From assembly GCA_003650305.1 (NCBI GenBank), contig QMOV01000003.1:1-64000 (forward strand): a stretch of DNA of 64,000 bases, read 5' to 3'. Positions 24,316-33,010 of this stretch are shown piece after piece. The position numbers and the translations under genes are program-made. The notes below the pieces were generated by a model, which was not told where the DNA came from, searched no databases, and worked only from the letters and a program-made list of their open reading frames with translations. The stretch comes from Bacteroidota bacterium. GTDB lineage: Bacteria; Bacteroidota; Bacteroidia; Flavobacteriales; Flavobacteriaceae. The number at the start of each line of letters is the position of its first letter. Positions within the stretch are counted from its first letter, which is position 1.

Positions 24316-24552
24316 ATGGGTTTCACTATTGCTGATTTAAAAAAAGGAGAACGAGGCATAATTACAGATATTTCTTCTGAAGCTATTCCGTTAAAACTAC
24401 TGGAAATGGGTTGTTTGCCAGGAAACGAAGTAGAATTAATTCAAGTGGCGCCATTTTCAGACCCATTGTATCTAGATATAAATGGTTGTCATCTAGCTAT
24501 TAGAAAAGAAATAGCAGCATTGATTTTAATTGAAAAGACAACTAATGAGTAA
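24316..24552 (+). CDS. feoA: Ferrous iron transport protein A
   Basis: ADLKKGERGIITDISSEAIPLKLLEMGCLPGNEVELI. Confidence 0.92.
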   Translation: MGFTIADLKKGERGIITDISSEAIPLKLLEMGCLPGNEVELIQVAPFSDPLYLDINGCHLAIRKEIAALILIEKTTNE

Positions 24553-26641
24553 GCAAATTAATGTTGCGTTAATAGGAAACCCAAATACAGGAAAAACTTC
24601 GGTTTTTAATGCACTTACTGGTTTAAATCAAAAAGTGGGGAATTATCCTGGGATAACTGTCGAAAAAAAAGAAGGTATCTGTAAACTTCCTCGAGGTGTA
24701 AAAGCTCATATTTTAGATTTACCAGGAACTTATAGTTTAAATGCTTCATCCATTGATGAAAATGTTGTTATCGAACTCCTTTTAAACAAGAATAATAAAG
24801 ATTATCCTGATGTTGCTGTTCTTATAAGTGATGTTGAAAATTTAAAACGAAATCTTCTTCTTTTTACTCAAATTAAAGATTTAAAAATTCCGACTATTCT
24901 TGTCATTAACATGGCAGATAGAATGAATAGAAAAGGAATTACCTTAAACACATCTATTTTAGAACAAAAATTAAATACCAACATTGCCTTAATTAGTACT
25001 CGTAAAAATGATGGCATACAACACTTAAAAGACCTTATAAACAACTACAAAGAATTATCTTTAGAGCCTTGTTTAGATACCTCAATCATTGATGTAGATT
25101 ATTTTGAAAGATTAAAAAAAGCATTTCCTAATCAAGACCTTTTTAAGCTTTGGTTAGTGATTACTCAAGATGTAAATTTTGGAAAAATGACCAGACAGGA
25201 ATTAGATTTTTCAGAATTCAAAACAAAATCGCATTCCGATTTAAAACGGCTTCAACAAAAAGAAACCATAAAGCGCTATCAATTTATTAATGAAGTCTTA
25301 AAGGAAGGGCAAACTATTGATGCCTCAAAAGCAACAGGATTGAGAGCAAAATTCGACCGTGTTTTAACTCACAAAATTTGGGGTTATGCCATTTTCTTTG
25401 TCATTTTACTTACCATTTTTCAAGCTATTTATGATTGGGCTAGTGTGCCAATGGACTTTATTGATGCTTCTTTTGCATCGCTTTCAAATTGGGTTAAAGG
25501 CACCTTCTCACCTGGAATTTTTACCGATTTATTGGCTGAAGGAATTATTGCCGGAATTGGTGGAATTGTTATTTTTATACCTCAAATAGCGTTCTTATTT
25601 CTATTCATTTCTGTTTTAGAGGAAAGTGGTTACATGAGTCGTGTCGTATTTTTAATGGATCGAATTATGCGTCGTTTTGGATTGAGTGGCAAAAGTGTTG
25701 TCCCATTAATTTCTGGAACAGCTTGCGCTATTCCTGCAATAATGGCAACACGAAATATAGAAAACTGGAAAGAGCGATTAATAACCATTTTAGTAACTCC
25801 TTTTACAACATGTTCTGCAAGACTTCCTGTGTATTTAATTATTATAGCTCTTGTAATTCCCGAAGGACGTTTTATAGGCTTAAGTTATCAAGCACTAACT
25901 TTAATGTTATTGTATTTAATTGGTTTTGGAATGGCTGTATTCTCAGCATATATTTTAGATAAGATTTTAAAAACAAAAAGCAAATCATTTTTTATAATTG
26001 AAATGCCTAATTATAAGATTCCTCTCTTTAAAAATGTAGCGATTACTGTAATCGAAAAGACTAAAACTTTTATTTTTGAAGCCGGAAGAATAATCTTAGC
26101 AATCTCAATTATTTTATGGGTTTTGGCATCTTATGGTCCCGGAAAGCAATTTAATGATGCTGAAACCATTATAACTGCTGAATACCAAAACTTAAATAAA
26201 ATAGAATTAGACGATAAAATTGCTGCACATAAATTAGAATATTCCTATATAGGAATTATTGGAAAAACCATTGAACCAGCTATTAAACCATTGGGTTATG
26301 ACTGGAAAATAGGGATTGCTTTAATTACATCTTTTGCAGCAAGAGAAGTTTTTATCGGTACGCTTGCCACTATTTATAGCGTTGGAAGTGCTGATGCCGA
26401 ACAAGAAGAAACCATTAAACAGAGAATGGTTGCAGAAGTCTATCCTAATGGTAATAAAATATTCACTTTAGCTTCTGGAATTTCTTTATTGCTATTTTAT
26501 GCTTTTGCCATGCAATGCATGAGTACTTTAGCTATAGTAAAACGTGAAACCAATAGTTGGAAATGGCCATTAATACAGCTATTTAGTATGACATCTATAG
26601 CTTATGTTGTAGCATTGATTGTGTTTCAGTTTTTGAAATAA
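24545..26641 (+). CDS. feoB: Ferrous iron transport protein B (full length)
   Basis: [46 protein letters not shown]-terminal TM gate domains; ATG at 24545 overlaps feoA stop. Confidence 0.95.
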   Translation: MSKQINVALIGNPNTGKTSVFNALTGLNQKVGNYPGITVEKKEGICKLPRGVKAHILDLPGTYSLNASSIDENVVIELLLNKNNKDYPDVAVLISDVENLKRNLLLFTQIKDLKIPTILVINMADRMNRKGITLNTSILEQKLNTNIALISTRKNDGIQHLKDLINNYKELSLEPCLDTSIIDVDYFERLKKAFPNQDLFKLWLVITQDVNFGKMTRQELDFSEFKTKSHSDLKRLQQKETIKRYQFINEVLKEGQTIDASKATGLRAKFDRVLTHKIWGYAIFFVILLTIFQAIYDWASVPMDFIDASFASLSNWVKGTFSPGIFTDLLAEGIIAGIGGIVIFIPQIAFLFLFISVLEESGYMSRVVFLMDRIMRRFGLSGKSVVPLISGTACAIPAIMATRNIENWKERLITILVTPFTTCSARLPVYLIIIALVIPEGRFIGLSYQALTLMLLYLIGFGMAVFSAYILDKILKTKSKSFFIIEMPNYKIPLFKNVAITVIEKTKTFIFEAGRIILAISIILWVLASYGPGKQFNDAETIITAEYQNLNKIELDDKIAAHKLEYSYIGIIGKTIEPAIKPLGYDWKIGIALITSFAAREVFIGTLATIYSVGSADAEQEETIKQRMVAEVYPNGNKIFTLASGISLLLFYAFAMQCMSTLAIVKRETNSWKWPLIQLFSMTSIAYVVALIVFQFLK

Positions 26642-26653
26642 TTAATAACTATT

Positions 26654-26753
26654 CCTTCCCTTTTCAAGGGAAGGTGTTCGAAGGACGGAAAGGTTAATTA
26701 ACCACCTCGTCTTTCAACTTTGTTGAAATTCACTCCTCCTTTTAAAGGAGGAG
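26654..26753. repeat. Multi-hairpin intergenic palindromic repeat
   Basis: ccttccc-ttttcaa-gggaagg; ggttaattaacc; ttcaac-ttt-gttgaa; ctcctccttttaaaggaggag. Confidence 0.7.
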
Positions 26754-26776
26754 AAAAAATTATAGTAATAAACAGA

Positions 26777-26914
26777 ATGAACAACACCATACAAACCATA
26801 TTTGTTATTATTACAGTTAGTGTTGCTGTTGGATTTTTAGTGAAAAAATTCTTGTGGAACCCAAAGAAGAAAACTAACAAATCCTGTGATAATGATGATT
26901 GTGGCTGTCACTAA
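26777..26914 (+). CDS. FeoB-associated Cys-rich small membrane protein
   Basis: MNNTIQTIFVIITVSVAVGFLVKKFLWNPKKKTNKSCDNDDCGCH. Confidence 0.85.
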   Translation: MNNTIQTIFVIITVSVAVGFLVKKFLWNPKKKTNKSCDNDDCGCH

Positions 26915-29016: not shown

Positions 29017-29775
29017 CTACTCTTTTTCTGTTTTGGAAATATTTATACTAGCTCCAACTGAAAAATAGTTCATAGTGTGATTAAGACCAGTTCCGAAAGA
29101 AACATCTAATTGAAAGTTATCTTTTACTAAATAGGTGATTCCAGCATCAAAACTCGCCTCATGTTGGTCTAAATCTATGAGGTTACCATAAGGTTCTAAA
29201 TAAACTCCTATTTTGTTGTTAATGCCAATTCCTAAAGCTACTGAATAGGTTAAATTTCCTTTTCCAACTCCAAAATAGTCGTATCCAATATTATATCCAA
29301 TCCCAACTTTTTCACTAATGCTATGTGAAATTGAAAGTTTATTGATAGTTCCCAATCTATCAATAGTAAGCTCTTTGGTTCCTGTAGGGAGAATTAAATG
29401 CGTTAAAAAAGCTATTTCTGTATTTACATCTTTTCTTTGAAAAATTTGAAATTTTGTGCCAATCTCTAAATCACTTATTCCATTTACTTTTTCAGAAGAA
29501 GTCTTGTTTTTTATGCTTTCAAATTGATTTACGAGCCTTAATTCTATACCTTTTGTAATTCCATATCGAAATAATGTTGAAGGTGCTAAAGTTTGTCGCA
29601 AGGAAATTCCTTCACTTTTAGAAGACCCAAACAAAACTCCAGTTTCTATTTGAAAGCTTCCTTTTGGAACAGTAGAAGAACTTTCGGTTTGGTCTGGTCT
29701 ATCAGTGATAATAGCTTGTGCATTTATTGATAAATTTATCAATAGTAGCATTACAAAAATTATAACTCTAATCAT
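29017..29775 (-). CDS. Outer-membrane transporter-like protein (MetA-pathway phenol degradation family type)
   Basis: Signal peptide, ITDRPDQTESSSTVPKGSFQIETGV; beta-barrel. Confidence 0.75.
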   Translation of the reverse strand: MIRVIIFVMLLLINLSINAQAIITDRPDQTESSSTVPKGSFQIETGVLFGSSKSEGISLRQTLAPSTLFRYGITKGIELRLVNQFESIKNKTSSEKVNGISDLEIGTKFQIFQRKDVNTEIAFLTHLILPTGTKELTIDRLGTINKLSISHSISEKVGIGYNIGYDYFGVGKGNLTYSVALGIGINNKIGVYLEPYGNLIDLDQHEASFDAGITYLVKDNFQLDVSFGTGLNHTMNYFSVGASINISKTEKE

Positions 29776-29793: not shown

Positions 29794-31209
29794 TTAAAAT
29801 AATCTCCAAATTTGAGTTACTAAAAATGTAATCACAAATCCCATTATTACTGGCAAAATTGAAGCAACTGTGGTCCATTTTGCACTTTTAGTTTCTTTAT
29901 AAATGGTGTAAATTGTTGTGCTACACGGATTATGCAATAAGCTGAACAACATTAAATTAATTGCTGTAAGCAAAGTCCAACCTCCTGCTCTTAAAATATC
30001 TCCTGTGGCAGTAACCGAATCTAATTCAAACATTACTCCCGCTCCTGCTCCTCCTACAATACCACTTGCCATAACGGTTAACATTAAAATAGTAGGAATC
30101 ACAATTTCATTAGCAGGTATAGCAACAATATATGCCAGTAAAATAACTCCGTTCATTCCTAACAAAAACCCAAATCCATCCAACGAATTAATTGTCCAAG
30201 TAGCAACACTTTCGTTACCAATATAAATATTTGAAATCAGCCAAATAACAGCTCCTGCTGGTGCAGCAAAAAGGATAGCTCGCCATAAAACAATTATAGT
30301 TCTATCAATCAAGGATGTGTAAACTGTTTTCCAAAAACGTGGTGGACGATATGGAGGCAATTCTAAATTAAATGTAGAAACTTCACCTTTTAAAACTGTT
30401 TTTGTTAATGCCCAAGAGGTAAAAAACATAAAAAACAGTCCTAAAATTGCTACTCCAATAACTGCCGATAACGATGCAAATGCAGAAAAAGAAGCAGGAA
30501 CAACAGCACCAATAAAAATGGTAGCAATTAATATTTGTGTTGGCCAACGACCATTACACAAAGAAAAATTATTAGTAATAATAGCGATTAAGCGTTCTCT
30601 GGGACTATCAATTATTCGAGTGGCAACAACTCCTGCTGCATTACAACCAAAACCCATACTCATTGTTAAAGCTTGCTTGCCATGTGCACCAGATTTTTTA
30701 AACATATAATCCAAGTTGAATGCAACTCTTGGTAAGTAACCAAAATCTTCAAGAAGTGTAAACATTGGGAAAAATATTGCCATTGGTGGTAGCATCACAG
30801 CAATTACCCAAGCGACTGCTAAATAAACGCCGTCAATTAAAAAACCATCTAACCACCAAGGCATTCCTATATTCGTTGCAAAACTTTTTAAAACTGGATG
30901 TATATTATCTAGTAACAAGTTTGCTAACATCGATGAAGGATAATTTGCTCCTATAATGGTAAGCCAAAGAATCACACCTAAAATCAAAAACATAATTGGA
31001 AAACCCCAAGTTTTACTTGTTACAATTTTATCTATTTTAGAATCTAAACGGAAACGGGGGGTTTCGTTATCGATACTAATAGATCCATTTGCAATTTCAG
31101 AAGCATCAGCATAGATTCCTTCAGCAAGTCCGTCATGAAAATCATCTCCAATCTTCCAACGTAAATCGCTAGACAAGGCTATTATATTTTCTATAGAATT
31201 TTTGCTCAT
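29794..31209 (-). CDS. FeoB-type membrane (gate) domain protein, stand-alone
   Basis: [83 protein letters not shown]; no G domain. Confidence 0.9.
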
Positions 31210-31219
31210 TGCTTTAATT

Positions 31220-31984
31220 TCATACTAGCTCTCCTGTTTTTAACGCATCAACAATATGTGTGTCTCCTTCTAATAATCGAAAAGCGATCCATCGACTATT
31301 TGGTATTGTTGGGAATTGTTTTTTAATTTCTGTGCTCAATGTTCTTACAGCAGTTTCTATGTTTTTTGGTACATTCTTTATCTGGTGAGGTTTGCAAATT
31401 ATTTCTCCATTTGCAACTTCGTTTATAGTATGAATTAAATCTGAAATGCCTTGACTGTATCGTGCACTTGTTGGTACTACAGGAATTCCTAAATCTCTGG
31501 CTAAAGTTCTTATATCAATTTTGATATTATTTCGTTTAGCTTCATCCATTAAATTCAAACACAAAACAGCTTTGTCAGTTATCTCTAAAATTTGCAGAAC
31601 TAGGTTTAGATTCCGTTCTAATCTGCTAGCATCTACAACAATAACGGTAACATCAGGTTTCCCAAAAAGAATAAAATTGCGAGCGACTTCTTCATCTTGT
31701 GATGTTGAAAGCAAAGAGTAAGTTCCTGGTAAATCAATTAATTTGAATTTTTTAGAATTATACTCAAAAGCACCTTCGGCTCTAACAACTGTTTTTCCAG
31801 GCCAATTCCCTGTATGTTGACGCAACCCTGTTAAGGCGTTAAAAACTGTGCTCTTTCCAGTATTTGGATTCCCAGCCAGCGCAACTACAAAATCATAATT
31901 GTTGGTATTCACTCCTAACTTTTTTAAGCCTTTTGCGTTAAAATGTGTACACATATCACAAGCACTATTAACTTTATTCACCAT
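31220..31984 (-). CDS. FeoB-type N-terminal GTPase domain protein, stand-alone
   Basis: [56 protein letters not shown]; ends [24 protein letters not shown]. Confidence 0.9.
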
Positions 31985-31987
31985 AGC

Positions 31988-33010
31988 TTAATCTTTTTTA
32001 ATGAGTATTTTGGATGCTTGATCTCTTCGTAATGCTATAGAAGTTCCTTTAACCAAGTAGGCTATAGGATCTTTCATAGGGCTCATCAAATCAATACAAA
32101 TCTCAGTACCTCTTACAAAACCTAAATCTAATAATCGTCTTCTGTTATCTCCTCTACTTTCTTTTGAAATCCCTAAAATATGTGCTATCTCACCATCTTT
32201 TAGGTTTGATAACCTCACTATATTTTCTTCAACTACTTCATCTTTTTCAAGAACAGCAACTGTTATATTTGCTGCAACAATTGGTGCTAATTTAAATTCT
32301 TCGCCTTCTGCATAAAAAACCACTCTTTGGTTGTTATTTTCTACCACTCTTATTTGAGAACCAATATGAATGTTCTCGGCAAGGATTTGTTTGTAAATTA
32401 CATCTGGTTCATCTTCAATATGAACTATTTTTCCAACAGTATTTACCCCCAAAGAAGATAAAAACTCTCCATGAACATCAGCCATTTTTCCAGTGTTTGT
32501 GGGAATTGGGTCTCCATGCGGATCGTATATTGGGTTCCCTAATTGTGTTGCTAACAAATTTGTTTCTTCATTACTTAATTCATGCTCTTTCGATTCTGCC
32601 ATTTCATGCCACTCCTTTTTATCATAACCTGTTTTTTCTGCCAAATACTTTTCCCAAAGCCTATGAACTCTAACAATACGCAAAGCATAATCTCTTCCAG
32701 AGTTTGTTAACTTTAAAATATCTCCATCAAATTGTATCAGCTCATTAATGGCCATTTTTTTAATAACATCAACTATAATACTGTCCTTAAACTTTAAGGC
32801 TCTTGTTAAAGCATTTACATTATCTTCTTTACCAGAATTTTCGCTGTGATATAAATGTTTTAGAACATCTTCGATAACTATTTTTTCATTCGATTTTAGA
32901 TTGTTTTTAATTAGCCAAAACCAACCCTTTCTTGGTCGGAATAACAAATACCCTAAAAATGAAATAACAAAAAATAAAAGTAAAGCGTATATAGGATTAT
33001 AAGTATTCAT
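31988..33010 (-). CDS. Membrane-anchored DtxR/MntR-like protein with C-terminal FeoA domain
   Basis: N-terminal TM (YALLLFFVISFLGYLLF); RVHRLWEKYLAEKTGYDKKEWHEMAESKEHE...DPHGDPIP; C-terminal LKDGEIAHILGISKESRGDNRRRLLDLGFVRGTEICI. Confidence 0.85.
   Translation of the reverse strand: MNTYNPIYALLLFFVISFLGYLLFRPRKGWFWLIKNNLKSNEKIVIEDVLKHLYHSENSGKEDNVNALTRALKFKDSIIVDVIKKMAINELIQFDGDILKLTNSGRDYALRIVRVHRLWEKYLAEKTGYDKKEWHEMAESKEHELSNEETNLLATQLGNPIYDPHGDPIPTNTGKMADVHGEFLSSLGVNTVGKIVHIEDEPDVIYKQILAENIHIGSQIRVVENNNQRVVFYAEGEEFKLAPIVAANITVAVLEKDEVVEENIVRLSNLKDGEIAHILGISKESRGDNRRRLLDLGFVRGTEICIDLMSPMKDPIAYLVKGTSIALRRDQASKILIKKD

Follow-up and report, generated by a model that had tools for sequence, protein, structure and literature searches.

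The locus examined here raises the question of why a DtxR-type metal sensor should be tethered to the membrane and joined to FeoA just ahead of a split FeoB, and whether such a protein acts on DNA, on the transporter, or on both. The gene lies in the window, a 64,000-nucleotide stretch of a contig from a member of the Flavobacteriaceae. It runs along the minus strand from an ATG at 33010 to a stop codon at 31988 and encodes a 340-aa protein that is named TDF here, for TM-DtxR-FeoA. An earlier note, made from the letters of the DNA alone, had described a membrane-tethered DtxR-FeoA protein at this position, and that observation is confirmed: the coordinates are correct, and the TM helix and the DtxR and FeoA domains were borne out by Pfam and AlphaFold2 (Table 1).

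Table 1. Features of the TDF locus and domains of TDF (window coordinates; residue numbers refer to TDF).
Feature	Position	Strand	Basis or remarks
DtxR box, palindrome TTTAGACAAGTCTAAA	33723..33738		Upstream of the operon
Soluble DtxR/MntR-type regulator, 218 aa	33012..33668	-	PF01325 61 bits, PF02742 105 bits; recognition helix conserved
TDF, 340 aa	31988..33010	-	TM helix, wHTH, DtxR metal/dimerisation, SH3/FeoA-like, FeoA; family of 96 sequences
TDF residues 6-24, predicted membrane helix, N-out/C-in by positive-inside rule	32939..32995	-	AlphaFold2 helix and charge
TDF residues 45-105, winged helix	32696..32878	-	Recognition helix (75-90) unconserved
TDF residues 102-171, metal-binding/dimerisation domain	32498..32707	-	PF02742 E 3.8e-23; ligands conserved
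TDF residues 180-254, SH3/FeoA-like domain, invariant H197 and D200	32249..32473	-	AlphaFold2 and alignment
TDF residues 265-338, canonical FeoA domain	31997..32218	-	PF04023 E 1.5e-23
FeoB2 G-protein subunit (split FeoB), N-terminal CxxC	31220..31984	-	PF02421 E 8e-62
FeoB2 membrane subunit (split FeoB)	29794..31209	-	PF07670, PF07664; subfamily alignment
Outer-membrane-barrel-like gene	29017..29775	-	PF13557 E 6e-24; downstream of feoB2

The FeoA domain and the DtxR dimerisation/metal domain of TDF scored far over the Pfam cut-offs, and both were found in every relative searched (PF04023 and PF02742, 62/62 each); the DtxR DNA-binding domain left a sub-threshold trace only (12.6 bits against a cut-off of 26). 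An AlphaFold2 model built on a 62-sequence alignment (pLDDT 93.3, pTM 0.84) predicted a TM helix at residues 6-24 and a complete wHTH, whose recognition helix spans residues 76-88, as well as the dimerisation helices and a pair of SH3-like barrels. The wHTH-like segment noted earlier is thus complete as a predicted fold, although its recognition helix is unconserved, and the C-terminal FeoA SH3-like domain is present, although the protein has two FeoA/SH3-like domains and not the one first described. In Foldseek, the solved structures that best matched the model were all Mn/Fe regulators: 5zr6, a Mn regulator with a target-normalised TM-score of 0.88, together with SloR, ScaR, and IdeR. The body of TDF is predicted to be cytosolic and anchored by its N-terminal helix, a 19-residue hydrophobic segment (KD 2.3). 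Such a helix was predicted in 93 of 96 TDFs, and positive charge was greater after it than before it in all 88 TDFs tested. Two family members from Chloroflexi and Thermogutta MAGs (L111 and L149) showed no clear N-terminal TM helix, and these are either natural TM-less versions resembling the soluble PgMntR discussed below or start errors. No PF00950 (ABC-3 permease) match was found in TDF, which has a single TM helix.

TDF is encoded in a compact minus-strand operon, behind a DtxR box, in the order soluble DtxR, TDF, FeoB G domain, and FeoB membrane domain, with its start codon one base past the stop of the soluble DtxR gene. As the earlier note had held, this adjacent gene (33668-33012) is a real soluble DtxR by its PF01325 score of 61 bits, and Pfam places the two parts of FeoB in separate ORFs. 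The soluble DtxR is likely the repressor of the operon. Of the 50 loci that start with a soluble DtxR, 30 had an exact TTTAGN6CTAAA upstream of it, compared with 0.1% of shuffled sequences; a DtxR box also stood ahead of TDF in 9 of the 32 loci without an adjacent soluble DtxR. Among 14 genomes examined whose TDF locus has no soluble DtxR, 13 encoded a soluble-size DtxR elsewhere, the exception being a 2.3 Mb MAG, and the idea that TDF is the sole DtxR where none adjoins was therefore rejected. Since almost every genome checked encodes a soluble DtxR, next to TDF or at another site, transcriptional control is accounted for without TDF, and the DtxR boxes are explained as well.

The barrel-like gene downstream of feoB2 possibly belongs to the operon and is possibly an outer-membrane component of metal uptake; homologues of this PF13557 gene were seen near several ABC-type and TDF-type DtxR loci. 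The window also carries a separate iron-type feoA-feoB-Cys-rich set at 24316-26914. Its FeoB1 (24530-26641) has SGTACAIPAIMATR and PFTTCSARLPVY, and the membrane part of the FeoB next to TDF, referred to as FeoB2, differs at both motifs, a possible metal-selectivity signature. The N-terminus of the FeoB2 G subunit (window 31940-31984) bears a CxxC that is conserved in most relatives across phyla (e.g. CETCP.HN..NL.KLGI) and possibly has a metal or redox role. In one genome (G014), the G and membrane subunits of FeoB2 were found on separate contigs with different neighbours (L037 on C137 and L198 on C8), so the two halves need not adjoin.

The proposal in the earlier note called for metal ligands in the DtxR part, and these are present. 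The predicted ligands are D48, contributed by the wHTH, together with H116, E120, H135, E139, E142, and H143. Five of them (H116, E120, H135, E142, and H143) were conserved in 96/96 TDFs, D48 was Asp in 93/96, and E139 was E or D in 93/96; in the SH3 domain, H197 and D200 were invariant across the 96 sequences, as was the pair D163/H165. Nearly every member accordingly keeps three ligand clusters, namely D48/E139/E142/H143, H116/E120/H135 with H197/D200, and D163/H165. A broken sensor was rejected because of this conservation. The recognition helix (75-90), in contrast, was the most variable region of TDF, with a mean entropy of 2.73 bits versus 1.25 bits in the adjacent soluble DtxRs. The same was seen when TDF and soluble DtxR from the same loci were compared (2.61 versus 1.36), and the difference held in equal-size subsamples. 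The mean net charge of the winged helix was -2.7 in TDF and +2.9 in the soluble neighbours, and PF01325 was matched by 4 of 62 TDFs versus 13 of 13 soluble DtxRs. A variable recognition helix is an absence of constraint and no proof against DNA binding; as judged from the alignments, the lost constraint favours the view that TDF does not bind DNA. Of the two options in the earlier note, gating "rather than, or as well as, binding DNA", the first is favoured.

The partnership with FeoB was found to extend well beyond the Bacteroidota, to which the earlier survey proposal had been restricted too narrowly. A scan of named genomes, many of them MAGs, yielded 80 TDF loci in nine phylum-level groups, with record titles from Bacteroidota, Ignavibacteria, Chloroflexota, Verrucomicrobiota, Planctomycetota, Gemmatimonadota, Acidobacteriota, Calditrichota, and KSB1. 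A FeoB G domain lay directly downstream on the same strand in 79 of them, at a median gap of about 0 nt, and the 80th stops at a contig edge; FeoB was split in most of these loci and whole in others. A full-length TDF was present in 15 of 121 genera of the same family. Within a phylum-wide sample, TDF was detected in 43 of the 398 genomes and 34 of the 174 genera, and each of these 43 hits covered at least part of the TM region. For a reverse search, FeoB2 was defined as the FeoB subtype recognised by a profile of the window's FeoB membrane part. TDF was present in 48 of the 54 genomes with FeoB2: in the family sample, FeoB2 occurred in 16 of 121 genomes, 15 of which had TDF (Fisher p 3e-18), and the class and phylum samples gave 5/5 and 34/39, respectively. 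The co-occurrence anticipated in the earlier note is thus near-obligate, and chance linkage of TDF with FeoB was rejected on the downstream position of FeoB together with the co-occurrence in the family and phylum samples. The architecture is common to the 96 family members, which likewise excludes chance. A natural TDF-FeoB fusion was looked for and none was found, the long L144 frame being out of frame with TDF.

The six FeoB2 genomes without TDF (G020, G446, G499, G509, G523, and G544) each encoded a short stand-alone FeoA ahead of the G part of FeoB2, and a FeoB2 without a FeoA partner was rejected accordingly. The free FeoAs tested scored 81-95 bits against a profile of the second FeoA domain of TDF, on which the iron-type FeoA1 scored 37-41 bits. 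That a free FeoA takes the place of TDF in these loci indicates that the C-terminal domain of TDF is FeoB2's own FeoA; each FeoB2 locus examined has a FeoA, either bare or behind a membrane-anchored sensor. The six genomes also show that the sensor is not essential for transport, a point against the gating of FeoB2 that we propose below.

With moderate confidence, we propose that TDF is a membrane-anchored, cytosol-facing regulatory subunit that gates the FeoB2 importer by cytosolic metal. Two TDF chains would dimerise through the DtxR domain beside the split FeoB, and the DtxR sites would bind Mn2+ or Fe2+ at the inner face of the membrane. The SH3 domain would relay the metal-induced change to the C-terminal FeoA domain, and FeoA would in turn set the GTP state of FeoB-G, such that uptake slows at sufficient cytosolic metal by feedback or trans-inhibition; metal on the DtxR dimer may do so by moving or releasing FeoA from FeoB-G. 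The winged helix, if freed from selection for DNA reading, could be a protein-contact surface, and the soluble DtxR, acting at the DtxR box, would control transcription separately. We infer both the contact between TDF and FeoB and the direction of the effect. In the FeoAB fusion of Bacteroides fragilis, the rate at which FeoB hydrolyses GTP is lowered by FeoA, an effect that the authors propose keeps transport on (PMC8980893). The interpretation in the earlier note is partly supported by the data above, and we infer the direct gating of transport.

Several known proteins share parts of this arrangement. Ordinary FeoA (PF04023), including that of B. fragilis FeoAB, resembles TDF in placing a FeoA domain beside the FeoB G domain, but it comes without a sensor; FeoA-DtxR proteins were excluded from the survey in PMC8980893 together with other non-Feo fusions. 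FeoC, which attaches to the G domain of FeoB, is cited in PMC10710835; this winged-helix protein is described as acting on FeoB as a protein partner and not on DNA, as is proposed here for TDF. FeoC differs in being small, soluble and, in Klebsiella, equipped with an Fe-S cluster. The MetNI/ModABC/YiiP-type domains (PMC10710835) offer a functional likeness, in that a cytosolic substrate-sensing domain sets transporter activity, although their folds and transporters are different; the latter review makes no mention of DtxR. Compared with DtxR/MntR transcriptional regulators, TDF has the two-site ligand set, but it lacks a conserved recognition helix and is predicted to be membrane-anchored, not soluble.

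A close characterised relative by description is PgMntR (PG1044) of Porphyromonas gingivalis (PMC4805248), which, like TDF, combines a DtxR wHTH and a dimerisation/metal domain with two FeoA domains and shares an operon with a FeoB-type transporter, the Mn transporter FB2. Comparison by the published residue numbers paired the ligands of PgMntR and TDF at a constant offset of 31 in the dimerisation and SH3 domains (H85/H116, E89/E120, H104/H135, C108/E139, E111/E142, H112/H143, D132/D163, H134/H165, H166/H197, and D169/D200), and the wHTH ligand D19/D48 at an offset of 29. In PgMntR, removal of the last FeoA domain abolished Mn binding (PMC4805248), which indicates that FeoA and the metal site communicate. 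Unlike TDF, PgMntR is a highly soluble protein of 310 aa with no room for an N-terminal membrane helix, and its binding to promoter DNA was shown in vitro. No twin-FeoA DtxR was found in 11 genomes of a candidate genus (G198).

PgMntR also provides the main argument for a different role, in which TDF would be a membrane-bound or proteolytically released repressor that autoregulates the feoB2 operon, with FeoA as an accessory to the dimer or to the metal site. The soluble PgMntR, which resembles TDF in its ligand positions and its twin-FeoA layout, binds the promoter of the FB2 operon in vitro (PMC4805248). In Chlamydia, YtgR is reported to be cut from the end of a permease fusion, to bind DNA, and to repress genes (PMC7755916; PMC5599777). 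Consistent with such a role are the boxes upstream of TDF in the nine loci described above, the predicted intactness of the wHTH fold, and the four TDFs that still match PF01325. On the other side, the recognition helix is the least conserved part and the wHTH is net negative, PF01325 is absent from the remaining 58 of 62 TDFs, and the soluble DtxRs account for the boxes. The TM helix has moreover been kept in 93/96 TDFs and is at least partly matched in every hit of the phylum sample, and a released fragment would need a DNA-reading helix, which selection does not appear to maintain. The retained TM helix, the unconstrained recognition helix, and the near-universal soluble DtxR make a repressor role less likely, and we regard it as unlikely while giving it some weight.

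Two further roles appear improbable. The DtxR part might serve as a metal relay or buffer that takes the metal leaving FeoB2 and passes it on, with FeoA as the docking part and no gating; the three ligand clusters, the predicted membrane-proximal position of the DtxR part, and the binding of three Mn per monomer by PgMntR (PMC4805248) would agree with this. However, the very high affinity of a DtxR-type site (in PgMntR, Mn is bound with an overall Kd of 2e-11 M) suits sensing better, and the dimerisation domain shows conservation like that of allosteric regulators. Equally doubtful in our estimate is a mere dimerising, membrane-anchoring scaffold that concentrates FeoA at FeoB2 around a structural metal: FeoA alone suffices in six FeoB2 loci and both the TM helix and the dimer domain are kept, but both DtxR metal sites are conserved almost without exception in nine phylum-level groups, which exceeds what a scaffold needs.

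Kinship of the tethered module with another class of transporters was seen in ABC permeases. In a related genome (L033), the same flanking genes and the same soluble DtxR surround a troABCD-like ABC importer that occupies the place of TDF-FeoB2. Both of its permeases (L033:5099-7370; 372 and 386 aa) carry a C-terminal wHTH-like tail, and the second showed a weak but significant match to TDF 18-111 (28% identity, E 2e-6). In other Bacteroidia, permeases of 412-500 aa extend into a complete YtgCR-type DtxR module. The TDF profile matched 18 permeases collinearly from the last TM helix to the dimerisation domain (hmmsearch E 1e-22 to 2e-45), the best match aligning profile positions 6-251 with L154 255-493 (E 2e-45). 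A hinge after the helix (P..G, then E-D/N-x-L-K) was present in 82/96 TDFs and 14/18 fusions, in 0/7 plain permeases, and in 0.6% of shuffled sequences. Permease-DtxR fusions have been reported in 11 phyla (PMC5599777), and Chlamydia YtgCR is described as one of them (Thompson et al. 2012, as reviewed in PMC5599777). Like TDF, these fusions place a tethered DtxR module after the last TM helix with a P..G hinge; unlike TDF, they have an ABC-3 permease in place of FeoA, and the majority of the Bacteroidota fusions seen stop behind the dimerisation domain.

A first tree that left out further soluble DtxRs (unrooted, about 131 columns) was less clear and, as drawn, placed TDF nearer the soluble group. 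With 25 diverse soluble DtxRs added, a single branch divided the soluble from the tethered modules (SH-aLRT 98; also unrooted, on about 131 columns); this split lends weak support to a common tethered group, being open to long-branch error. The simplest reading of these alignments would be one tethered sensor module on two unrelated importers, FeoB2 and the ABC-3 permease. We put forward more tentatively that a DtxR sensor may have been recruited across many phyla as a membrane-tethered feedback gate, not binding DNA, of ABC-3 permeases and, via FeoA, of FeoB2. The wHTH of the permease tails has a charge of +3.4 and has not lost its positive charge, which limits the claim of no DNA binding to TDF.

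The distribution of these importers also bears on the substrate. Across the 121 genera, the sets with FeoB2 and with ABC-3 permeases did not overlap (0 versus 6.9 expected, p 6e-5), and there was a weak tendency of FeoB2 to avoid NRAMP (p 0.07). The slot beside the soluble DtxR was filled by TDF-FeoB2, by an ABC importer, or by an NRAMP with a UspA-like extension; two of the latter (L277:2464-4332 and L278:1209-3101), of 622-630 aa, carry the extension at the C-terminus beside a soluble DtxR. P. gingivalis has a proven Feo-type Mn2+ transporter (PMC8749426; FB2 in PMC4805248). The mutual exclusion of FeoB2 and ABC-3 permeases, the importers sharing the DtxR slot, and the P. gingivalis transporter together suggest that FeoB2 is probably a Mn importer.

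DtxR-FeoA proteins and permease-DtxR fusions are already on record, and no description of a transporter-gating DtxR was found in the open-licence literature. Judged by that literature, several points are new: that the FeoA version occurs tethered to the membrane, that it partners FeoB2 near-obligately and is equivalent to FeoB2's FeoA, that it is akin to permease tails, and that conservation of the metal site is decoupled from that of the recognition helix. The permease-fusion kinship, the published PgMntR, and the stand-alone FeoA replacing TDF in some FeoB2 loci are absent from the earlier note.

TDF bears on how FeoA controls FeoB and on how Mn/Fe uptake is stopped faster than transcription allows. 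With a high-affinity sensor of known fold covalently attached to FeoA and operon-locked with FeoB, metal feedback on the FeoB GTPase becomes directly testable, and the presence of the same module on ABC permeases makes this one testable rule for two transporter classes. It also offers another reading of the permease-DtxR fusions now called transcriptional repressors: if the tethered-module view is true, DtxR-family "repressors" fused to transporters would be transporter gates and not transcription factors. These data suggest that metal is perhaps sensed directly at the transporter, beyond the switching of genes.
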